DNA from: Erodium maritimum
Lineage: Eukaryota; Streptophyta; Magnoliopsida; Geraniales; Geraniaceae
Length of the DNA: 64,000 nucleotides
Assembly: GCA_963921825.1 (NCBI GenBank)
Contig: OY997594.1
Coordinates: forward strand, 9,987,001 to 10,051,000
Direction of reading: 5' to 3'
The notes beneath the pieces are model-generated. The model was given only the letters and a program-made list of their open reading frames with translations. It had not been told where the DNA came from and searched no databases. The stretch's first letter is position 1; the number at the start of each line of letters is the position of its first letter. A program made the translations under genes and the position numbers. Below, piece by piece: positions 28,597 through 50,539 of this stretch.

Positions 28597-31595
28597 TTAC
28601 AGCTGCTGTAACTTCCGTAGATGCTCTAACAATGTAGTAGCCTTGCGCTTGGCCCTCTCTGTGCCACACTTAGCGAGCTCGGTCAAGGGTTGGACAGCTC
28701 CAAGCCTACACATATCGGCAAGATTCTCAGCATCTCTCTTGCATAAAGAAAGCAAAATGGCAGTGGCGTTCTCCTTGCTGCGGGGCGGGCCTGTCCTCAA
28801 GAGATCAATCAAAATGGGTAAGGTGTTAGCCTTTACTATAGCAGTCTTAGCCTCTTGGTTGCAAGCAAGAACTGACAGTATGGTTAGAGCTTCATCAACC
28901 ATGCCATTACTAGCATCTGTAAGCATCTTCAGTAATGCAGTAATTATCCCTGCCCTTACAGCCCTGCCTTTGTTCCCCTGATAAATGCACAAATTGAACA
29001 GAGCAGTCGCAGCATCTTTCTTTCCTCTAGTGCTTCCACTCTGGAGCAGTTCAACCAATGCAGGTATGGCCCCAGATGCACCGATTATTATTTTGTTCTC
29101 TTCTGCAAGTGACAGGCTGAAAAGGGTTGCTGCAGCATTCTCTCTTGCTTCCATGCTGCCAGCTCTCAGGATTTGAACAATAGAAGGAACTGCACCAGCA
29201 AGCATTATGAGTCCCTTGTTGTTTTCATATATAGAGAGGTTAAGAATGGAAGTAACAGCATTTTCTTGTGTCATCAAGTCCTCTTCTGTCAAAAGGTTAA
29301 CTAGAGCAGGAATAGCTCCTGCTTCAGCTATTAGTATCCTGTTATCTGTACTTCTTTTGGATAATGATCGGATTTCGGTCACAGCACCTCTTCGCTCCTC
29401 TACTGAACTACTTGAGAGCTTCTGGACTAGCGTTTCAATGGCTGCTATGTCCTCACTTACATCACGGAAAGATCCATCACTCCTCTTGATCCGCCCATTA
29501 GCTAATGCCATTGGCTGCTCAATATTGTGATTAGTGCACCACTGAGTGATTAGACTTCTCAAAACATAATTTGGTGTTAGTGTCAGATGTCGTAGCTTCT
29601 GCTGAGTTTTCGGACAAGTTGCATTCCCACTGTCTATCCATCTCTGTATGTAAGCCCTCTCATATGTCTGTACAATCATGAGAAAGGTAACTCAGAAGGG
29701 AGGAAAAAAAACTATAGTAGCTTAGTATTGAGATCCGCCATGTAAAATAGAGCAAGATCGAGAACCATACCTGTCCTGTGGCAACAATAACAGGATCCCT
29801 CATAAGTTCAAGGGATATAGGGCACAGAAAATCATCAGGAATCATAACAGAGCCCAGCTTTTTAGTCTCACTTTTGCTGGCCATGTTGTCTTCAGCACCA
29901 GTGACTTCACTTAATTGACAGACCTCAGAAAGTGCGGGGTCATTCCTTGGCCTTTCAGTTTCGTTAGTCAGTTGATCAGCACTATGGCTTCTTAAGAAAT
30001 TACTTTTTGGAATGCTGATGCTCTTTGCTTCAGTTTGACCATCAACAAAACCAATAATCCCAATATGCAAGCTTCCACTTAATCTGTTGTTCAATGGTAG
30101 CAGATCCAATTCTTTCTCCAGTGGCTGCGACAATGTACGAGGTAACAGTCTTGGATTGGAGGGTCCGTACCTCATAGTTGCTCGTTTGAACTGAGCTCTC
30201 ACCAGTTCAACCTGAGAATGAGAGAGGGGACATTAATATCGACCGCTTCAAGATAATAAAAAAAGACCTCATGTATCCAACTCATACCTGTTCTCGAACT
30301 TCGGCCGAGATGTCAAAATCATCATATGGTAGATTTCCCAATGCTTTCTCCAGTTTCCACGTCACACATTGGAATTGATAAGAAATTCTCTTCGCAGCAT
30401 CATCCTTTAATGAAGATACAATAAATTTCAGACAGGTACCTAGACATTATTTAAGTGATGCACATGATATGACCACAGATGAAATACATCAGGTTTCCAA
30501 GTCCAATTACTGGGATGAAAATAGAACAATCTCATGTACTAAGTATAGCCATTTACAAGTATAAGTACCAGACACACCAAATTCTTCCTATAACTAATAT
30601 AGGACTCTTCGGAGATCCATGAAAGGAACTGTATAATTTGTGTTAATGGCCCATTGAAAGACATTGTGCCCCTTAAAAGATGTTGGAAGGAGTCCCTTAC
30701 ATGTCAGAAATGCTGTCCATGATGAAGCCATGTTTCTATTAGAAAGAAACAATCAATACCATTCCCATTGACCTTCAGAACTCCTTTGGAAACTTTGAGG
30801 AGTTAGTTACAATCCATGCTCTTAAATTGATGTTAGCAAGCCTTGTCAGTAGCAATGAATAGCAATGAATGATCTGAAAGCAGATTGAAACTGCTCAGCA
30901 GCTAGGATCATCATGTTTTTGGTTAAAGGAAGTTAGATTAGCCTCACATTTATACAAATTTAGTACAATGCATGTGCATATAGGAAATTCTAATGGGTAA
31001 GTTCCCAATTAAATTGATCTCCCAAATAAAATACATGCCCCCAATTAGTTAAAAAAGATTCCAAGACACACCCAAAAAACATTGAAACTAAGGCACAGAT
31101 CTAAATTTATAGACAAAATGACTCAATATTCACAAATTGCTCTTTTTACTTCTACGGAAATGCGAATAAATAGACAAAAACAGATTTAACGTTCGGTACT
31201 TAATTATATTCTGAAGAATGATCTGATAGCAAGCAGAAGAGAAGAGGAATATGCAATTAACTTACAGAGAAAGCGTCTGAACCGAAGCTTGCAGCGGCGT
31301 AGAGGAGGCGCTGGGCCGCCTGGAGCGAGGCCACCAGATCGGACCACCACGGGCACGAACTAACAGTCCCGCTACTAGAAGAAGTGGCATCCGAGTCCAC
31401 AGGACCGCTGAAATCGGAGATCTCCTCGAATAAATGCGTCAAGAGAGCGAGCCTGCGTGCCAGATCCGTGCAATCCTTCTTGAACATCCCGGAGGCGGGG
31501 GCTACAGTGCGGGAAATTTCCTGAACGAGTGAGAGAAGGGAAGAAGAAACAGCACGATCGCCGGGAAATGCAGAGGCGGTGGCTCCGGCGGCCAT
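28597..31595 (-). CDS. U-box / ARM-repeat E3 ubiquitin ligase (PUB12/13/14, SPL11 class)
   Basis: This is a cytosolic or nuclear E3 ligase that recruits E2 through the U-box and binds targets through ARM repeats. Relatives control cell death, flowering time and turnover of immune receptors. Exons (minus strand) are 31595-31266, 30404-30288, 30211-29771 and 29667-28597, all GT-AG and in phase, giving 652 aa; class members are 630-690 aa. An N-terminal helical UND-like region covers residues 1-155 and includes LPYDDFDISAEVREQVELV. The U-box at about 268-342 reads IPDDFLCPISLELMRDPVIVATGQ across the exon 3/4 junction, then TYERAYIQRWI and CPKTQQ, ending LTPNYVLRSLITQWC. Armadillo repeats follow from about 385 to the end. 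The start is the ATG at 31595 (MAAGATAS); the frame extends upstream only to a GTG. The exon 1/exon 2 join has the same length as in relatives, so no exon seems missing from the 860-bp first intron. Confidence 0.92.
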
Positions 31596-37399: not shown

Positions 37400-40135
37400 T
37401 TAGATTGAATTTAAGTTGAAAAAAGAAAGAAAGATGAGAATAAATAGCAAAGGCAATACCTGTTGAAATTTGGGAGCAAAAGCATCCTTGGTAGCTTGGC
37501 TCTCCCACTGCAACTTATCCCACCACCAACTGCATCCTTTGATCTTCAGTTCTACATTACTCGTCTTCACCGTATTGCAATCCAATGGAAGTTTACTCAG
37601 ACTGTCACAATCTATTACTTCCATCTCTTTCAGGGAAGGAAATGCTAAAGCACTCTTCCCACATATGCTCCTCAGCTTTGGTAGGTTCCATAAAGTTAGA
37701 GACACCAAAGTGGAGAACAATAATTTCTGCAAATTATCATCACCTGCTTCTTCACTCACCAATTCCTCCAAGGACTCACATGAATCCACATGAATACCAC
37801 AAATGTTGGGTAGATAGATGAGTGAGCTCAGGTTTCTTATATTCTTACACTCAACGATGAATAGGCGCCGGAGGTTATTGCCATAGTGAGTAGAGAACTG
37901 AGGTTCACCGGTGATTCGGGATCCTAATTTTACTTCTGACATGTCGCAACGTTCCATTTTAAGCCATTCCAGATGTTTCATCAGCCTTCCTGAAGATAAA
38001 TCAAGTAAGTCTGGTAGAGGATCAACCCATTCCAATGTTAACATTCTAGTACAACCTTGTATTTTCTGAGAGTCCAAGAAAAACTGGATAGATGCAGCCC
38101 AGCTTAACACCAGACAGAGATCCATTATGTGTGGCAACCCCTCTAACTGTTCTAGCATCTCCTTTTCCGTTACCCTGTCTTCATCATCATCGTCGCAAGC
38201 AAGACTCAAACGCAATCCTTCATGTTGATCAAATGTTTGCAACGCCAAAAGATTTGATAGAACTTTCCCTGGAATTATTGTTCTGTAATTTAGCAGCAAG
38301 AACTTCAGTTTCTTCAAATTCTCAACCTCCACTGGCAATCTTGTCACACTTGTAAACCTGGCATTAAGGTATTCCAAATTAACCAACCCTCCAATATCCA
38401 CTGGTAATTCAATCAACTCACCGTTGTATGACAAGTCCAAAACTTTTAAGGATTTCATAGTTTCAAAAACTTCACCGCCCAATATCTTCAGCTTTGTGTT
38501 TCTAATTATCAAAGTGCTTAGATTGGAACAAGATGACAACCCTGCCAGAGACTTGAATGCTACACCATCTCCCCAGAGCGATACCTTTTCTGCATTTCTC
38601 CATTTTGTCATTACATTATGTGCAGCTGAAGTACCATCATCGTGAACACTCACAACATCTATCACAAACTTGTTCTTCTCCTCCCCACGTCCACAAGCAA
38701 GCCATAAGGCCATGTCCCGGATGACATCATGCATTTGAACATATCCTTCCCATTCACCAACCTCCAACAAACATGCTTGTATCAGTCTTTCAATGATTTG
38801 TCTTCCTTGGATAAGCGCATCATACACGCTATCATATTCATCTAGTAATCCCTCAGCAATCCATATTTTAATGAGTTCATCTTCTTCAATACTCTGATCT
38901 TCTCGGAATATAGAACAATATTTAAAACATTTCTGAAGTATCCGAGTGGGCAAGCTGTCATAACTGAATACCAGTTTAGAAAATACTTGACCCTCCATAC
39001 CAGGAAAAGTTGATGGGTACTTCCTCAACACCCTTTTCGCATCCTTCCATTGCCGAGCATTTGTTTTATCTTTCATGGACCGCCCTATAGTAATAAGAGC
39101 TAGTGGTAGACCTTGGCACTCGCTAGCGACATCCTTGATAAGCTCCCATAACTCAGGATGAGATTTTACGACATCTTCCCCAACCTTAGAGCAAAACAAG
39201 TTTAAGGCTTGATCTGGGGGCAAACAACCCACTTTTATGAGCTTCTGAGCCTCCATGCATTGACAAGTTTCTTGAGAGCGAGTCGTAAACACAACCTTTG
39301 ACATTTTCTCCGTGCAAGGTTGGGGAATACCCACTTCTGAGAGTTCAATTCTCTCCCATAAGTCATCTAGGAGCACAACAAACTTCTTCTCTTTAAGTTT
39401 GTTGAATATGAGAGCAACTCTTTCATCCGCACTCTTATTCTCCCACAAGTGATCTGGGATATTTAATTTGCTCCTAATGGTATCACGAATCCTTCCCAAA
39501 TTTGCTTGTGTGGAGACCACAATCCATATGACTGTATCAAACTCATGGCTTGTCTTAAGGAACTCATTGTTAAGTTGCTTCAAGAGGGTAGTTTTGCCTG
39601 CGCCCCCAATTCCAACTAATCCGATAATTGAGGAATCTTTATCTTGAAGAGATTGCCAGACCTCTTGAAACTTTGATTCAAATCCCACCATAGAGTTCTC
39701 CATAGGCAGCTCATCCACGAGAGGTCGTGGCAACTTATCAGCAACATAGTCAAACTGTCCTTTTTCTGTTAGTCTTATGACTTGAGGAAGCATCTTCATC
39801 ACCTGCTTGCCGAGCTTGTAGCTAGACCAACAGTTCTTAGGACAGCAACATTTTTTTTCAATTTCTTGAGAACTCTTGAGCAGAATTGGGTTCACTTTCT
39901 TTTCCAGGGATTCAACACTGCACAGCCAGCCGTGGACTTTGTTTGTTTGCCTCATTTGTTGTTCTTCTGCGTCTCTCACTCTGTTCCTCACATCTTGTCT
40001 TTGGTTGTTGAGTTCATCCATTGCAGTCCTCAAAGAGATTAGGTTGCCTTCAAAATCACTAATATAAGCTGCATGCTTGGCCGAGCATGCCCACAAGCAA
40101 GGCACAATGCTACACATCTGGCTCAAACAGTCCAT
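37400..40135 (-). CDS. CC-NBS-LRR (CNL) disease-resistance-type protein, RPS2/RPS5-like
   Basis: Intracellular immune receptor of 911 aa, uninterrupted. The N-terminal coiled-coil region covers residues 1-140 and contains the W-x-x-x-VE motif (VHGWLCSVESLE) of RPS2/RPS5-type proteins and no EDVID. The NB-ARC has a P-loop GIGGAGKTT (about 175-183), kinase-2 FVVLLDDLW (252-260), RNBS-B KVVFTTRS, GLPLAL (342-347), RNBS-D CFKYCSIF and the MHD motif VQMHDVIRDMALWL (about 468). Leucine-rich repeats run from about 540 to 890. The start is the ATG at 40133-40135 (MDCLSQMC); the frame extends upstream only to a TTG. The C-terminus SQATKDAFAPKFQQ is the usual family ending, and a donor CAG|GTATTG follows at 37458. 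The last 19 residues may therefore be intron read-through, with a small exon downstream. No second NBS gene is in the window. All nucleotide-binding motifs look intact, so it may be functional. Confidence 0.93.
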   Translation of the reverse strand: MDCLSQMCSIVPCLWACSAKHAAYISDFEGNLISLRTAMDELNNQRQDVRNRVRDAEEQQMRQTNKVHGWLCSVESLEKKVNPILLKSSQEIEKKCCCPKNCWSSYKLGKQVMKMLPQVIRLTEKGQFDYVADKLPRPLVDELPMENSMVGFESKFQEVWQSLQDKDSSIIGLVGIGGAGKTTLLKQLNNEFLKTSHEFDTVIWIVVSTQANLGRIRDTIRSKLNIPDHLWENKSADERVALIFNKLKEKKFVVLLDDLWERIELSEVGIPQPCTEKMSKVVFTTRSQETCQCMEAQKLIKVGCLPPDQALNLFCSKVGEDVVKSHPELWELIKDVASECQGLPLALITIGRSMKDKTNARQWKDAKRVLRKYPSTFPGMEGQVFSKLVFSYDSLPTRILQKCFKYCSIFREDQSIEEDELIKIWIAEGLLDEYDSVYDALIQGRQIIERLIQACLLEVGEWEGYVQMHDVIRDMALWLACGRGEEKNKFVIDVVSVHDDGTSAAHNVMTKWRNAEKVSLWGDGVAFKSLAGLSSCSNLSTLIIRNTKLKILGGEVFETMKSLKVLDLSYNGELIELPVDIGGLVNLEYLNARFTSVTRLPVEVENLKKLKFLLLNYRTIIPGKVLSNLLALQTFDQHEGLRLSLACDDDDEDRVTEKEMLEQLEGLPHIMDLCLVLSWAASIQFFLDSQKIQGCTRMLTLEWVDPLPDLLDLSSGRLMKHLEWLKMERCDMSEVKLGSRITGEPQFSTHYGNNLRRLFIVECKNIRNLSSLIYLPNICGIHVDSCESLEELVSEEAGDDNLQKLLFSTLVSLTLWNLPKLRSICGKSALAFPSLKEMEVIDCDSLSKLPLDCNTVKTSNVELKIKGCSWWWDKLQWESQATKDAFAPKFQQVLPLLFILIFLSFFNLNSI

Positions 40136-42022
40136 CGAGCTAACTTGCCTACAACCGAGCAATAGCCTAATTACAGAAACAAGAATAATCAAGCAATCTA
40201 ATCATTTTTAGTTGGCCACTACAAAACCACATACAAGGAAAGGGCTAATTTTTAGAGTAATAACATGAACGACCCTACAGCATATATTGTATGAACTAAA
40301 TATTGATGGTATAAAACTGTGTTAGTACTGTGATCTAGAAACCACAACTGTAATTTTAGTAACTCAGTAATCTAATTAACTGTATACAACTTTAGCTAAT
40401 GGCTATGCATAATCACGCATAGAGATCTTAGAATTTGAAGACAAGCTAATCCATCGATGTTTATATTATTATAAATACATTCTTACCAACCTGATAATCA
40501 AACAATGTCTGGGAAGCTATTCATCCAAGATTCCATTAGCAATGTCAGAAACTCTGGGCAAATAGAAATGTAGCATTCAACAAGATAAGAACCTTCAGAA
40601 AAAAGTAAATGTAATGAAATGACTTTGGTCAGAAAAAGAACGGTGCAGAAGGTCAAATACTGGGTACCGAAGGGTACACGAGAGTATAAACGGAAAAAGA
40701 CTGAACTGCAGTAATCAATGTGTAGTGGTAATTTAATGGTATTCGAAAATATTGATCCATTTGAACAAATAGTCAAAGTTTATCTACCCAAGGGATGGAT
40801 CTCCACCTATGAAATTGTCACACTCATACATGTTTTTCTTAATTCACCTTTGCACACAATCTGGCGTCCCAAAAATACCATTGAATTAAGACATAGGCAG
40901 TCTCCAAAATACCATTGAATTAAAATATAAACTTTCCCATGTTTTTTAAATGATGATGCAATTATAACGTACCATATTAATTCCTCACTATTAACATCAA
41001 AACAAGTCCTATATGCCTACTTTATCTATCTTGTGCGAAAAATAAAAATCATATGACTGCATAAAAGTTTTAACCACCACAATTGTTAACGTTCCATGAC
41101 AACATTCATATCAATAATAGTTCATTTGTACATCTAAAATTAGCAGGTAAGTTACTAGTTTCAGTTTACAGTTTGGGCTAGTAACATCCATATTGCCAAT
41201 TTGTGGTTTTCAATCTCTTGCTCGATGACAAGTCATTTCCGGAATCCCAAGTTCAATTCTTAGAAACTGGTTTTTCCAACATTGAAAAGCAATTTAGTAA
41301 CGACAATAATATCCTATATTGGAAACAGACATTTGACATTTTCATTCCCAGTCTGATCTCATTCATCATAAATAACAAACATTATTTAGAGGCTAACTAG
41401 GCTTCAATTTAGTATTCAGCATGTAGCAAACAGTAGCATCTGAATTTACAACCGATTATAAACAGTAGCACCTTAATACACATCTGAATTAAGCAGGGAA
41501 TGTTCTGGAGATGGAACATGCAATCAGCTAGAAGCTAGCAAAAAAAAAAAGTATCATTTCAGAACCAAAATATATCAAGCGCAACAGAGAGATTTTAATC
41601 ATTTACGTGATGCAGAAATTAAAAGAAGCAAAGCTAGATCCAGAATTATAACTTACATGGCAGGAGAGGAAGAAACAATCGTGGAAGAAAGGTCACAATG
41701 AAATGAATTTGACTGATAGATGGACAAAGAGTAGGAAAGGGGAGATTTTGTCTTTTTCAATTCATTATCTACAAAATTCTATCGTCTCAATTATATATTC
41801 AACGCAATTAATCATATTTGTTTGGATTATAGTTATTAAATATGCAACCATTTTCACTACTGTTCACCAAACAAAAGGTTGTGCTCTGCTCCATTTCATT
41901 AAGGTTACTCCTCAATGACTAAATAGATTTTTGTTCATCAGTAGCTTAGCTGTAACTGCTAAATAAACTAATTTAGATCTGCAAACAGAAAATGGAAACA
42001 AAACATTGATTAAGACCCGATA
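40136..42022. other. Intergenic between the CNL and LPR-like genes
   Basis: This contains the CNL promoter side (from 40136 rightward) and the 3' side of the ferroxidase gene. I saw no further exon, RNA gene or bounded repeat. Confidence 0.45.
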
Positions 42023-44210: not shown

Positions 44211-44711
44211 GGTTGTCTGAAGTCGGCAGGAGAGGGGAGCCTAAGCATTTATATTTGAGGATATGTGTATTATAGAAATTAATTAGCTGGGGCCCCTACT
44301 TGATTATGTACAGCTCGAAGAGATGAATGGGGAAGTTACGAATCCGATGAATATTTGTCTCGATTGACAAATCCCCAAGATTTGTTTCCTTATTCCACAG
44401 TGGGGAAAAAATTGATTAGGTCTAATCTCAATCTGATTGGACAAAAAATAAAAATAAAAAGATGGTTCTGATTTATAGGGAAAAGTGGGCCGTAAATATA
44501 TTTGACTTATTTGGGCCACATGGCGCTTCTGTATAAGAGAATTGTGTCTTAGATCCGAACAGACGGTCGATAAATCCATCGACTATGGAGATGGTCTAAT
44601 CGACATAATCGTAAGTTTTAAGTTTTTTTCTCAAAATATGTCGAATGGATACTCCTATTAGACATACAAAAACCTTCATGGCAAAAATTTTAAGATATGA
44701 GAATTATATAC
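44211..44711. other. Upstream region of the LPR-like gene
   Basis: Promoter region of the ferroxidase gene, ending at the target-site duplication of the copia-like element at 44712. The insertion lies about 500 bp upstream of the start codon. No other gene is seen. Confidence 0.5.
44248..44254 (-). promoter_or_regulatory. Candidate TATA box of the LPR-like gene
   Basis: On the minus strand it reads TATAAAT in the context CAAATATAAATG, about 38 bp upstream of the ATG at 44210. It would give a very short leader of some 10-15 bases, so the true start site may differ. Confidence 0.4.
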
Positions 44712-44716
44712 ATATG

Positions 44717-45032
44717 AAATGACATGTGTGGCCACCACAATCAACATGGCACCACTACTTGCATATGTAGTATATGTGGCATTTGCTCATGTGCTCTTAG
44801 TTCCTATAAATAGAGGTGTCAACATGATCATCCAACACACCACAACACACATCCAATACTCTCATTTTGTAGAAAAGTTCTCAAGAAATTAATGAAAATT
44901 CTCTCTACTCTCTAATTCTCAAGTGTTCTTTCTTGTCTTGCTTGGTAACCAACCTGTAGACACCAACCTTCTTATTATTCTTGGGTCATTGGTGTCTTGG
45001 TGTTGGTTCCAATCAAACTTGATTTTACAACA
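44717..45032 (+). repeat. 5' LTR of the copia-like element
   Basis: 316 bp, starting AAATGACATG and ending TTTTACAACA. Compared with the 3' LTR it lacks the first eight bases (TGTTGTGG) and an internal block of about 12 bases near 44829. A TATAAATA box is at 44815-44822. The sequence after the LTR (CGTTATCGACACG) is in the primer-binding position but does not match the common initiator-Met type TGGTATCAGAGC. Confidence 0.85.
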
Positions 45033-46002
45033 CGTTATCGACACGATCTTGTTCAAGTGGCTCAACTTTCAGCTCGTGTATCTCTAAAACGAACCGTCAA
45101 AATACAATTTCCACCGTTCATGTTTAAGACCCATATGTGGAGAACATTCACTCCAAAAATAAGCTCCATCGGACATTGGATGAACCTCCGATTGGGCACT
45201 TGAAAGTGGCTGGTCGGACCAAAACTGTGCAGAAAATTCAGCACCTTCTTCTTGTCCCAAATTGGTTCAAGAACACAAAGGAAATGAAGAACACCAAGGG
45301 AGGATGTATGACTTGAGTCTCCAAGACGCCTACGTATTTGGTATCAAAGTTTCATATTCTCATGAATTTATTTATATTTGAGTCATGCTTATTTATGCAT
45401 GTTCAATTTATGACTTCCTTATAAGTATGCTCTGTGATCGCCAATTTTTATTGGATCTTTCACATCAGAAATTTGATGCTTATTATTTGTGTTCTTATCA
45501 TCAAAGACTTGTATTTAAGGCTTTTTGAAACCGAAGCACTTGGGCCTGAAGTTTCAAGATGCAGAAACTACTTGCATGTAACATGCAGCTTGGCTTAGAG
45601 CCTAAAACTTGCAAACTTTTTATGCGGGTTATATGAGTAATTTGGATACTCCATGAGTTCACTCCTCGCATGATCATTTTATGAATGAATTTGTGAGTTC
45701 GCATAACGGTAACGTGAAGTTTACAAATATGATGGTATATTGGACCAGAAGTTCCAAATACATGATACCAGCGACATGACGTACTTTGGGCCGGAAGTTC
45801 CAAATAATCCATACCAACGACTTGAGGTCGTGTATGATGAATGCCAATATGTTCATATTGAAATACCTTGATATATAAAAGTTTCAATCCATGTTAAGGA
45901 TGAAAAACTCTTGTAGTATGGACTACTTCATAAGTGAAACGGTCTTCTATCGAAACTAAATCATTTGAGACCAGAAGCTCCAAATGAAAATTCACATGGT
46001 CG

Positions 46003-46190
46003 AAGCCTGATATTTGATATTACGACCAAATGATAAATCACTGGCCTGAAGCCTGATGCTTGCCTATACGACCAAATGATAAATCACAAGCCTGAAGGTT
46101 GATACTTGCCTTTTTACGGTCAAACGATAAAGCACAAGCCTGAAGCTTGATACTTGTATTTATGACCGACTGATAAGCCACGGGCCCGAA
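46003..46190 (+). repeat. Tandem degenerate repeat of about 50-60 bp, each with a hairpin core
   Basis: Four units of the type ACGACCAAATGATAAATCAC, then AAGCCTGAAG-TTGATACTTG, follow one another. Each carries one CCNGAAG hairpin core. They lie in the untranslated part of the copia-like element. Confidence 0.7.
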
Positions 46191-46351
46191 GCTCGTAAGA
46201 TGGCATTAAAAGAAGAATACAGACCACATGCCTGAAGCCTGTAACTTGTAGTAAAAGTCACAAGACAAAACCACAGGCCCGAAGCCTGTAACTTGTGTCT
46301 GAGGCCTGAAGCCTAAAATTTATATGCAATTACTTATATTTATTCTATCTA

Positions 46352-46505
46352 CCCGCGAGCTTGCTCGTTATGCGGTTATACATATATTTAATTTTGGCAT
46401 TTTGATTACCCCGCGAGTTCGCTCGATGTGTGGTTATACTTATATTTATATCTTGTTGTTACTTACTCTTATCATGTTCACCCCATGAGTTTGCTCATTA
46501 TGCGG
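46352..46505 (+). repeat. Three tandem hairpins with a covarying stem
   Basis: Three related units (starts about 46353, 46411 and 46482) contain CGAGC-TT-GCTCG, CGAG-TTCG-CTCG and ATGAG-TTTG-CTCAT, each followed by TGCGG or TGTGG and TTATA. The C-G pair in the first two is T-A in the third, so both sides of the stem changed together. Confidence 0.75.
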
Positions 46506-46654
46506 TTATATATCTAATTATGATGATTCAAATGTTGTATATTTGTAACCCGAAGTTTAAAAATATTGAGAAATTCTGGACCTGAAGTTCCAAAATTGTT
46601 AACGATATGTTCGTTGGGACAATCGTTCAAATGGAATAGATATGTGCACCATTG

Positions 46655-46925
46655 CTATATGTCGTATGGCCAGAAGCTCATACATATTTAACATTTCACA
46701 TAATTTGTGATAAGTTCATTGCATCATTCGTTCAAGTGGAAATTTATATGTGCATAGTTGCTAAAATGTCGTATGGCCAGAAGCTCATATAGACTTAACA
46801 TTTCATTGAATTTTAGATAGATGTACTGAACGTTTCGTTTCATGAGAACTTAATATGTGCAGTGTTGTTAAATGTCGTATGGCCAGAAGTTCATACCGAC
46901 TTAAACTTTCACAGAACTTGAGGTT
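46655..46925 (+). repeat. Three tandem units of about 105 bp
   Basis: TATGTGCA followed by GTCGTATGGCCAGAAG and CTCATA or TTCATA recurs near 46661, 46769 and 46874, with similar spacer DNA (ACTTAACATTTCA, CATTCGTTC). Each unit carries one GTATG...CATAC hairpin on the CCAGAAG core. Confidence 0.75.
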
Positions 46926-49689
46926 ATAAATTGGTCATCTATAAATATATGGTTATGGTCCCCAATGGAGTACATGACATTCCTCTTTCTTCTCACCCCC
47001 ATTTGAGAGTTAGAATTTATGGAGCAAGTATAATCCATTGGAAGATCCCTAACCACCTTGTTCTTCTTCAAGAGATATCCCATGACTTCAAGTAAGTAAC
47101 ATTTAATTAATTCCGCTGCTTTGATTTTGTGTTCCTATTTGTTGTTTTATTATTTTGTTGTTATTATGGATTAAAGTCTGATTAGTGACCTAGATCGGAA
47201 GATCTAATTGGATTTAATGTCTCAGACGACTCTATATAACGATGTAGCCGATATGATCATGGTCCATTTCGCCAATTATACATGAATCCCTGAAGCGATC
47301 CATTCATGTGCGAAAATGAAGAGCTCCAGAAGAGCTACCATGTCATTGAGATTTACGATGAAGTTAAGCATTAATGCTCTATATGAGAGTAGATCCAGAA
47401 GCATCTACTCAATATTAAAGTAGACCCGGAAGCATCTACTCAGTGTTGAAAATGTTTTATATGAAAGTAGATCCAGAAGCATCTACCCAGTATTAACGAC
47501 ATACATGTCATGTTGAGACCCCAAATGAGACTGAGTTTTCCTGTATCACCAGAAGTGATAAATATGGTGAAAAACATCTACTTGAAAAATCACTAGCTTT
47601 ATCATCAGGTTTGTATTATACGACCATAAGAGCAATTGAAACCTACGCGACTATGAACCCGAAGTTCATTAGTCCAGATATTTAACGATGATGCGTAGGA
47701 TTGTTGAGAACTCATATGTACATTCATTAAAGGGTCGGAAGATCCTAATGTCCAATGAGATATCATGTACAACTTGTTCACAAGATAAACTAAAGGTCAA
47801 CCATCTAAAGACAATTTTAGTATGGAATTTCAATTACTCATGCAGAGAATTCATGAGGATATATATGACCATACTTATAAAAGACACATCCAGAAGATGG
47901 TCTTATGGTATCTTGATACTTTATACGAGACACATCCAGAAGATGGTCTTATGATATCTTGAGTCCCCTAAGGACAAGAGATTTATAGCATGATCTATTA
48001 GTTTCATCTTGATGAGACGATATCATTCACCTTGAAGTGAAGAGAAAAGTCCTTCCTGAAATAAGGCATGAAATGTTCTTGGAAATTATTTTTGTCTCAT
48101 CATATATACCTGAAGTACATAAGCTCGCACATTTGAAAAATGTTGCAGACCAAATGCTAGACGCATATAGAAAAACAATCAGATCATGTCAAGATACATG
48201 CAAAGATTTAAAAGCTTTGCGAAAGCGGGGAATGACTCATCTTACACGCCAGAAGCGTGAGAGGATAATATTGATTCCATTAGGAAAATCATGAACATGA
48301 TAAAATAAGTGTTAGTTCCAGAAGAACTACTAGAAGTGGTTCCAGAAGAACCACCTGGGAAGGTTCCAGAAGAATCAGTCGCCTAGAAAATGTCATAAAT
48401 CTCTAATACTCCTGAAGAGTTGCAAGAGAAAATAAATCATGGAATTGAAAATCGACATCCATTGATAAAGGCATTCTATTACCATAATTTAAATGGTAGA
48501 TGATTTTGACATTGAACCACATGGTGTTGACTAATGTTATTTAAAGACATGTTTGGCTAATACGAGAAAATATCATTCTAGAAGAATTGACTTATTGGCA
48601 TAATGTCCAATGTTCAAAATCATGATCAAAACATTGAAGGATGTTTTTCCAGCTGGGTATAGATGAATGAGAAACAAAGATGTTGAATATGAAGCACACC
48701 TTATAAAGGTATTTCTCTCAAATGACTTGAAGCCAACTTTTGATAAAGTTGTGTTGTGTGATCACCATGGTATATTTGATATACGTACCCACTGCTAATG
48801 GTACTTTGAGTGCCAACATTTATAAAAGTCCCCGAAGGACTTGCATTGCCTGAAGCAAATCTCATGCATTGCCTGAAACATTGTAATTTGCCTGAAGCAA
48901 ATCCCATGAAAATTTAAATTGCCAGAAGCAATGTCATTCCCCAAAGGATTTATGATTATCTAGAGAAATGACTCTCTAAAGGGTTTAATTTGCATGAGTC
49001 AATGAGACATGGTATGAGAAACCATGTACTCAGTAAGCAGTGTGGTTCGATAATATATGGACTCCTGAAGAGGTCCTTGAAACTGTAGTATGTTTAAAGA
49101 AAAACTTTCAAATGAAAGCTTTGATGATGAAGTATTGTCTCGTCTTGAAGATCGAGCATACTTCAAATGGATCCATAAATATGCATATGTTAAGAAACGT
49201 CTGCAGCGTGTTCAACTTGATATTCAAACGATCGATCGATATTTAGATCCTAAAGAGGATCTCATTTATCTCAAAGAAATGAAAAGAAATTTGATCCTGA
49301 AGTACCATATCTAAATTTGAGACATTATGATAAACAAGGCCTGGCAGAAAATTCGCAGTAAATGTGCTAGCCAACTTGAGCTCATAAACTACTTACCGGT
49401 TTTGAGAAGGAAGCAAATCTGCAAAGTATGTCCCGGGACAGTAGTTTGAGAAGAAAGTTTTTCAGTGTTTTGGTTGCAACCATTATCATGAACTCCAGAA
49501 GAGTCGTGAGATTGACGTCAATCAGAATCACGTAGTGAAAATCCTGCAAGTTTGATTCACTGAAATTTGGGCAACATCAGTTTGTTTTTGGGAAAGTCAG
49601 TGTACAAGATAATATGAGTCGACTTCGCAAGAAACCGAGATTACTCACTCGATCTTCAGGGGGAGCGATAGTCAGGGGGGGTATGTTTC

Positions 49690-50105
49690 TGTGCGCTGCA
49701 CTCTTTTTCCCTTATTCAGGTTTTGTCCCACGAGGTTTTCCTGAAAAGGTTTTTAACGAGGCAGCTGTTATGCACGTCCAACTCACCAGAAGGGAGTAAA
49801 TGGAAGAAAAACTCTACTCGGTATGGCTTTCCTGACATCCACTTGTTGAGAAGTTAATGTTCAAGATCAAGATCTGTCGACTCAACCGAACAACCAAAGT
49901 AACCTGCCTGAAGTCAGGGGGAGACAAGTTTTGTGCGCTGCATTCTTTTACCCTTATCCAAGTTTTGTCCCACATGGTTTTCTTGGAAAAGTTTTTAACG
50001 AGACAACATCAAGCACAGTTTCAAGCACATCTTGTGCGTTGCACTCTTTTCCTTACAGGTTTTGTCCCACCGGGTTTTCCTGAGGAGGTTTTTAACGAGG
50101 CAACT
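49690..50105 (+). repeat. Triplicated 3' untranslated module before the polypurine tract
   Basis: The module TGTGCGCTGCACTCTTT, then GTTTTGTCCCAC, GGTTTTCCTG and GGTTTTTAACGAGGCA occurs three times (starts about 49690, 49936 and 50034). One copy of such a sequence is common near the 3' end of plant copia elements. Here it is amplified and each copy has diverged. Confidence 0.8.
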
Positions 50106-50130
50106 TCAACTTGAAGCACATTGTGGTGTC

Positions 50131-50140
50131 CAAGGGGGAG
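50131..50140 (+). promoter_or_regulatory. Polypurine tract of the copia-like element
   Basis: AAGGGGGAG lies directly before the TG of the 3' LTR, the standard primer site for second-strand synthesis. It supports plus orientation for the element. Confidence 0.75.
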
Positions 50141-50476
50141 TGTTGTGGAAATGACATGTGTGGCTACCACAATCAACATGGCGCCACTACTTGCATGTGT
50201 AGTATATGTGGCATTTGCTCATGTGCTCTTGGTTCCTATAAATAGAGGTGCTAACCCCTTGTATTAGATGATCATCCAACATACCACAACACACATCCAA
50301 CACTCTCATATTGTAGAAAAGTTCTCAAGAAGTTAATGAAAATTCTCTCTACTCTCTAATTCTCAAGTGTTCTTTCTTGTCTTGCTTGGTAACCAACCCG
50401 TAGACACCAACCTTCTTATTATTCTTGGGTCATTGGTGTCTTGGTGTTGGTTCCGATCAAACTTGATTTTACAACA
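50141..50476 (+). repeat. 3' LTR of the copia-like element
   Basis: 336 bp, TGTTGTGG...TTTTACAACA, with a TATAAATA box at 50237-50244. It is complete and carries the two blocks missing from the 5' LTR. Confidence 0.88.
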
Positions 50477-50539
50477 ATATGCACATTATTTCATTGGTTA
50501 AGTTCAATGAGGAGGACCGAGCTTTGTGGTGTTCATGGT

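Follow-up and report, generated by a model that had tools for sequence, protein, structure and literature searches.

LARD is a large non-autonomous long terminal repeat (LTR) element with LTRs, a primer-binding site (PBS), a polypurine tract (PPT) and a long non-coding interior, and BARE2 is reportedly a non-autonomous copia element that parasitises BARE1. To our knowledge, dozens of constant-loop hairpins are not known for BARE, the sequence of which was not itself searched, and both the choice of RNA for packaging in plant LTR retrotransposons and the mobility of elements without open reading frames (ORFs) have been little tested. Hitch-hiking of non-autonomous copia elements of the BARE2/BARE1 type is treated in the cited part of one report (PMC3735527). 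For Ty1, the cited parts of two reports describe a packaging region of the RNA that forms kissing loops and binds Gag, and place the signals at the 5' end (PMC5454406, PMC8396678). Dispersed RNA packaging stem-loops, for example with RGAG loops, are described in the cited portions of reports on single-stranded RNA viruses and hepatitis B virus (PMC7612645, PMC6281560, PMC5431903, PMC7793301). The subject of this analysis is an ORF-less LTR retroelement at 44717-50476 on the + strand of a 64,000-nucleotide (nt) stretch of Erodium maritimum DNA (contig OY997594.1, positions 9,987,001 to 10,051,000; the whole stretch is referred to as the window), the interior of which contains many hairpins built on the core CCNGAAG.

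These hairpins occur above chance, are bound to the sense strand and to a single core, covary, and are kept in both coding and ORF-less elements. The hairpin is very probably a selected structural element. The whole mechanism that we favour, in which the selected hairpins would act as dispersed packaging signals read by Gag and reused by ORF-less hitchhikers, is given a probability of about 0.5, with Gag as the presumed ligand.

Hairpins on a constant core in the Erodium element

The first-pass annotation of the window had reported about 40 CCNGAAG sites with complementary flanks between 45535 and 49920. Exactly 40 sites were counted in this interval on the + strand and one on the - strand, and all five of the hairpins that had been quoted as examples (48336, 48313, 48826, 48886 and 47653) were present at those positions. 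The annotation had also judged chance to be very unlikely, and the controls bore this out. The whole window contains 62 CCNGAAG sites on both strands; in 100 shuffled versions that kept its dinucleotide composition, the number was 26.3 ± 5.1 and never above 40. Flank swaps were carried out by re-pairing the flanks at random among the sites, which preserved both the core and the base composition. With the closing C-G pair included in the stem length, perfect stems of at least 4 bp were found at 17 of the 40 sites and of at least 5 bp at 11, the longest being 7 bp; the reported range of 4-7 bp was therefore correct and the reported count of at least 18 perfect stems was not. Stems of at least 3 bp beyond the core were found at 17 sites compared to an expected 1.2 (maximum 6), and of at least 4 bp at 11 sites compared to 0.5 (maximum 4), in 5000 flank swaps. 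When bulges and G-U pairs were allowed, 27 of the 40 sites had a score of at least 9; across 10,000 flank swaps, 3.2 sites did so on average and never more than 12.

Local RNA folds gave a five-nucleotide loop closed by C-G in 20 of 40 site windows, compared to 4.8 after swapping (maximum 9, 20 swaps), and the z-scores of six folded hairpins ranged from -0.83 to -4.11. Among perfect stems of at least 5 bp, five-base loops alone exceeded all 60 shuffles (18 vs 7.2, maximum 16); other loop lengths showed a slight rise (9 to 13 vs approximately 7). Weak sites also exist: 13 of the 40 scored below 9, and 22 of the 39 distinct contexts failed a strict test that required at least four contiguous pairs with at most one small bulge.

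Relatives, conservation and core specificity

The E. maritimum genome (763 Mb, 40 contigs) contains 771 occurrences of GTTCCAGAAGAAC, compared to 40 for the reversed control. Twenty loci of 9.9 kb (L009-L028), all on contig C1, were chosen by a hairpin-containing 13-mer, which in itself guarantees one site or more in each of them. The tests used chosen subsets of elements: sixteen elements for site counts, seventeen for core variants, thirteen for core retention, four for the unbiased core scan and six for one further test. For L018 (in the site counts, core variants and core retention) and L027 (in core retention), no usable LTR pair had been listed, and their internal bounds were placed manually by aligning them with the window element. 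Sites too close to a locus end were omitted. The loci contain 5 to 54 sense and 0 to 3 antisense CCNGAAG sites each. Part of the 20 have long gag and pol frames; those of L011 matched Retrotran_gag_2, gag_pre-integrs, rve, SH3_retrovirus and RVT_2, with a CCHC knuckle just below the cut-off. Coding copies L010-L013 and L021, with LTR identities of 97-99.6%, contain 26-31 CCNGAAG sites each, compared to 37-51 in five ORF-less copies; for L016 the count over the whole locus is 21. The sites of L011 are not confined to the leader and span gag and pol. Its 24 pol sites use all three frames (14, 5 and 5), in agreement with the earlier statement that the core appears in several frames, and ORF-less elements keep the core. 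Eight copia elements of other lineages from the same genome have 1 to 6 sense sites each (20 in total), only one of which scored at least 9 and none of which folded with the loop. According to the cited part of one report, Ale copia elements have LTR ends unlike those of this lineage (PMC5659011). Three scans of viral contigs for related elements returned none.

Retention of the core was compared with a background of G+C-matched windows. Between ORF-less copies, 1384 of 1846 cores were retained (75% vs 43%), and the core is therefore conserved where there is no reading frame to protect. From coding to ORF-less copies retention was 276 of 441 (63% vs a 25% background), and between coding copies it was 88% vs 80%. 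Stem positions changed on both sides were then scored for pairing. In three divergence bands, 20 of 29, 110 of 173 and 52 of 88 double changes gave Watson-Crick pairs (59-69%), compared to 14-37% for slid controls in which the partners were shifted by 1 or 2; the copies within these bands are related and hence not independent. The closest divergence band contained no double changes. Ten disjoint sister pairs yielded 10 double changes against 3.3 expected.

Seven-base cores whose ends form a Watson-Crick pair were compared in an unbiased scan of the window element, L022, L011 and L037, the last being a second plant element described below. CCNGAAG formed hairpins at 20 of 40 sites in the window element (overall rate 3.4%), 19 of 39 in L022 (4.0%), nine of 31 in coding L011 (3.4%) and 11 of 21 in L037 (2.4%). 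It ranked top in the window element, L022 and L037, and in L011 was tied with its own overlapping forms, which also made up the other top entries of the scan. By subtraction, hairpins on other cores amount to approximately 2-3% of positions. Across the seventeen elements of the core-variant comparison, 111 of 293 distinct CCNGAAG contexts formed hairpins (38%), as did none of 11 contexts of the reverse-complement (antisense) core. All C.....G cores together gave 166 hairpins in 2665 contexts, including the 111 of CCNGAAG, and replacement of the closing pair by G-C (0/5), A-T (0/11) or T-A (0/33) gave none. The 18 single-base core variants were rarer, with 4 to 60 contexts and 0 to 12 hairpins each.

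The stem begins either at the closing C-G pair itself or after one unpaired 3' base, a feature that had not been described in the first-pass annotation. Such a 3' offset was observed in 32 distinct contexts from eight non-coding elements, 16 from six coding elements and seven from L037, compared to 1.8, 1.1 and 0.5 with swapped flanks. No offset by one base on the 5' side was seen in any of these three sets (0.5, 0.1 and none with swapped flanks). In the non-coding elements, T or C accounts for 31 of the 32 extra bases; A is the extra base in 6 of the 16 coding cases and in three of the seven in L037. In RNA folds, this class took the form of an eight-base loop at 45732-45764 of the window and in the centroid structure of L037 5370-5405. 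The Smaug/Vts1 recognition hairpin has a CNGG loop with G at the fourth loop position. As a candidate identity for the present hairpin it fails, since the loop here is CNGAA and CCNGGAG was found in 8 contexts (3 hairpins) vs 293 (111).

The coding relatives with the same hairpins, likewise absent from the first-pass annotation, extend to a second plant element. Contigs of a genome collection were searched with a pattern derived from the gag alignment; 41 stretches matched, of which one, L037 (NZ_QPKJ02000023.1), was a relative. It is a 5.6 kb scaffold of 37% G+C that belongs to a Solirubrobacter assembly and carries a copia gag and pol. Its gag is 53% identical, and because its pol matches plant proteins the scaffold is most simply explained as plant contamination of the bacterial assembly. 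L037 contains 21 sense and 2 antisense CCNGAAG sites, and strong stems were found at 14 of the 21 compared to 2.0 by swap (maximum 8). Its 15 pol sites are distributed over the frames as 7, 2 and 6. The scaffold is without a leader and carries a 3' array of units of approximately 65 nt. At 69% amino-acid identity, CCNGAAG was found at the aligned L037 place for 11 of 15 scored L011 pol sites, three of the 11 falling where the linker aligns poorly. In one case (MNQKFI vs MSQKLS) an A-T pair adjacent to the core has become G-C, with one amino acid altered per side; the outer pairs of this stem are not conserved between L011 and L037. Another bacterial record, from Corynebacterium sp. MC-13 (P0203), also seems to contain a plant copia retrotransposon.

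Layout of the window element

The features of the element are as follows.

44712-44716, no strand: target-site duplication ATATG, left copy (direct reading; equals 50477-50481)
44717-50476, + strand: ORF-less LTR retroelement, with an LTR pair, target-site duplication, PBS-like stretch and PPT
44717-45032, + strand: 5' LTR, without the first 8 nt found in the 3' LTR (blastn)
45033-45048, + strand: PBS-like stretch CGTTATCGACACGATC, directly adjoining the 5' LTR
45535-46920, + strand: leader hairpin block with 16 CCNGAAG sites, several within 46-nt and 107-nt tandem units
47280-47960, + strand: second block with 9 CCNGAAG sites, part of them in duplicated units
47653-47669, + strand: hairpin ATGAAC[CCGAA]GTTCAT, with a homologous hairpin within the pol ORF of coding relatives
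48100-48420, + strand: third block with 6 CCNGAAG sites (motif positions)
48313-48329, + strand: hairpin TAGTTC[CAGAA]GAACTA (motif positions, folding)
48336-48354, + strand: hairpin GTGGTTC[CAGAA]GAACCAC, the longest perfect stem (7 bp; -12.1 kcal/mol in a 31-nt window)
48820-49075, + strand: fourth block with 5 CCNGAAG sites, including AAGTCC[CCGAA]GGACTT at 48826 and ATTTGC[CTGAA]GCAAAT at 48886
49290-49920, + strand: last 4 CCNGAAG sites, at 49296, 49495, 49786 and 49907, three of which score below 9
49717-50105, + strand: three tail repeats, GTTTTGTCCCAC..GGTTTTC, with variable flanking arms
50132-50140, + strand: PPT AAGGGGGAG; an identical or similar motif precedes the 3' LTR in related copies
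50141-50476, + strand: 3' LTR, TGTTGT...ACAACA (blastn against the 5' LTR, direct reading)
50477-50481, no strand: target-site duplication ATATG, right copy (direct reading)

The two LTRs are identical in 305 of 329 blastn columns (93%). The longest sense frame of the element is 93 codons, and there is no intact gag or pol; when a decayed gag was sought in 48043-49500 with Pfam in three frames, the best match was far below the cut-off. No known RNA family in Rfam matched 44700-50500 at gathering scores. In most related copies the PBS reads CGTTATCAGCACGA, from which that of the window element deviates at a few bases. LTR ends, PBS and PPT are common to the window element and its coding copia relatives. 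The features expected of a non-autonomous Ty1/copia element, namely an LTR pair with a target-site duplication, a shared PBS and PPT and the lack of an intact gag or pol, were all found. Solely from the shared ends, we infer that the element may be mobilised in trans by a coding relative.

Several further observations were made. At 44711-44717 the target-site duplication is retained though the 5' LTR lacks its first 8 nt, as if the end had been trimmed at insertion. By eye, the translation of the third block resembles the Pro-Glu-rich pol linker of coding relatives. A second repeated hairpin type, GAG-YTYG-CTC with varying outer pairs (C-G, T-A), lies in the leader at 46350-46510 and is also present in nine other loci. 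Around the constant middle of the tail repeats the arms are CAGG/CCTG in two copies and CCAA/TTGG in one, and both arm types were found again in other copies of the element. Elsewhere in the window, two long ORFs were noted by eye: that at 37400-40192 resembles an NBS-LRR resistance protein, and that at 28597-29679 resembles an armadillo-repeat protein.

Possible function and relation to known systems

Under the proposed mechanism, a single recognition hairpin would recur many times along the genomic RNA of one copia lineage, each copy consisting of a stem, the constant C-C-N-G-A-A-G, an optional single unpaired base and the complementary stem. On the genomic RNA these hairpins would be bound by one of the lineage's own proteins, the likeliest being Gag through its RG-rich and CCHC-knuckle tail, and the many sites on each RNA would cooperate in capturing it and loading it into virus-like particles. 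Having lost gag and pol, the ORF-less elements would have kept or multiplied the tag and would ride in the particles of their coding relatives. Gag is considered to be the best candidate because it must choose RNA, because its tail is RG-rich with a CCHC knuckle, and because proteins related to it occur widely among flowering plants (1491 gag homologues, the best 120 of which were listed). Wherever a eukaryotic source is named among the gag and pol relatives, it is a plant. The broader proposal, that a flowering-plant copia lineage tags its genomic RNA with tens of Gag-read hairpins and that its ORF-less hitchhikers are roughly LTRs plus tags that compete by tag number, is more tentative and falls somewhat short of an even chance. 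In the gag linker of L011 (reverse strand, oriented position 2702) the tripeptide HQK is encoded by a CCAGAAG hairpin, and HQK occurs somewhere in 98 of the 120 listed gag homologues (alignment A1).

Several results weigh against this mechanism or against parts of it. Were RNA pairing under selection, G-U should be commoner than A-C among the mismatches, so the near-equal numbers of the two argue against an RNA reading: the ratios were 29:35 in the ten disjoint pairs, 168:199, 294:327 and 112:144 in the three divergence bands, 6:6 for recurrent states and 23:24 in one further count. Only the closest divergence band favoured G-U (15:8). Small numbers and the decay of dead copies may hide a G-U signal. 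The expectation that stems stay complementary in sister copies held for most double changes in the divergence bands and was weak in the ten-pair test, where 5 of 10 formed pairs, as did 1 to 3 of 6 to 10 when the partners were slid. The cross-species comparison was also a weak test, with 18 of 31 double changes paired compared to 7/21, 9/28, 5/24 and 12/23 in slid controls. Three core variants formed hairpins at rates that match the 38% of the core (CCNGTAG 5/10, CCNGGAG 3/8, TCNGAAG 6/19); these are perhaps decayed sites, and the specificity of the loop consequently rests on abundance as well as rate. Site number is also uneven, since the older coding relatives L015, L017 and L019 have just 13, 10 and 15 sites and the ORF-less L014 and L024 just 17 and 23.

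Chance or a compositional artefact has a negligible probability. Stems of at least 7 bp with five-base loops showed no excess (1 vs 0.7), but stems of 4-6 bp did, and the unbiased core scan and the local RNA folds were also above the swapped expectation; the dinucleotide shuffles and flank swaps, none of which reached the observed counts, rule this explanation out. It is very improbable that the hairpins are a by-product of coding, with CCN GAA representing Pro-Glu codons of the pol linker that were multiplied by tandem duplication. Tandem units are indeed present, and the Pro-Glu frame holds 14 of the 24 L011 pol sites, with nine of these in the linker; however, the other ten lie in the remaining two frames, and with the linker removed 12 of 22 L011 sites still score at least 9, compared to 1.5 expected (maximum 7, 5000 swaps). 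Furthermore, cores are conserved in ORF-less elements, and the stems of the tandem units differ yet still pair. Small-RNA precursor sites, one of three ideas raised in the first-pass annotation, appear unlikely because the stems are only about 4-10 bp.

Action or origin at the DNA level, through hairpins in single-stranded cDNA or through repeated quasi-palindrome correction by template switching where reverse transcription pauses at a fixed motif, is improbable. Correction too would yield double changes that restore pairing, and the fact that most sets favour G-U no more than A-C leaves this explanation some standing. However, other cores form hairpins at only about 2-3% of positions in the four scanned elements, CCNGAAG itself is over-abundant and conserved, and the eight other copia elements lack the pattern. 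Quasi-palindrome correction, another of the earlier ideas, expects symmetric palindromes independent of the loop, which were not what the core scan, the side of the bulge and the closing pair revealed; it is disfavoured because the hairpins are specific to core and orientation and have a one-sided bulge. Among the three, most support goes to the remaining idea, a recurring element of a non-autonomous retroelement for recognition by protein or RNA, except that the hairpins are not restricted to non-autonomous elements and also lie within coding gag and pol. If the hairpin is a selected RNA structure, its partner could be a host RNA-binding protein, reverse transcriptase or integrase rather than Gag, with a role in export, stability, translation control, localisation or strand transfer. 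This is rather unlikely, although the evidence for selection (swaps, covariation, core scan, variants and retention) is silent on the ligand and the L011 sites extend beyond the leader across gag and pol. Retention in ORF-less elements favours a cis signal needed for mobilisation by another copy, and the eight copia elements of other lineages lack the motif despite sharing the same host proteins.

A short countable tag with tens of copies per RNA opens the questions of packaging and hitchhiker mobility to a simple binding assay, and provides a search rule for annotating hitchhikers. RNA structure could also shape the coding region, as in the HQK of the gag linker, with the Pro-Glu runs of the pol linker possibly another trace. 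No description of CCNGAAG hairpins in retrotransposons was found among the matches listed in a search of titles and abstract starts of openly available journal papers.

By analogy, the closest known counterparts are viruses that carry packaging hairpins dispersed along the genome. As far as the cited parts of those reports go, the likeness lies in many stem-loops along the genome that share a short loop motif; many shared-loop hairpins were found here, with conservation and stem covariation across relatives (weak in the ten-pair and cross-species tests). Unlike the viral signals, those described here sit in a plant LTR retrotransposon and share the core CCNGAAG, which may be followed by one unpaired 3' base; their protein binding is putative, and several ORF-less hitchhikers outnumber their coding relatives in copies. 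As in Ty1, structured cis signals are present in the RNA of a copia-superfamily element, for Gag in Ty1 and putatively so here; in contrast to the 5'-end signals in the cited parts of the Ty1 reports, the 40 sites are spread across the whole internal region. The element is LARD-like in its LTRs, PBS, PPT and long non-coding interior, and unlike a LARD in that this interior contains selected hairpins. Similarly to BARE2 and BARE1, a non-autonomous LTR element has cis signals in common with a coding copia; unlike BARE2, it has lost both gag and pol and retained the hairpins.

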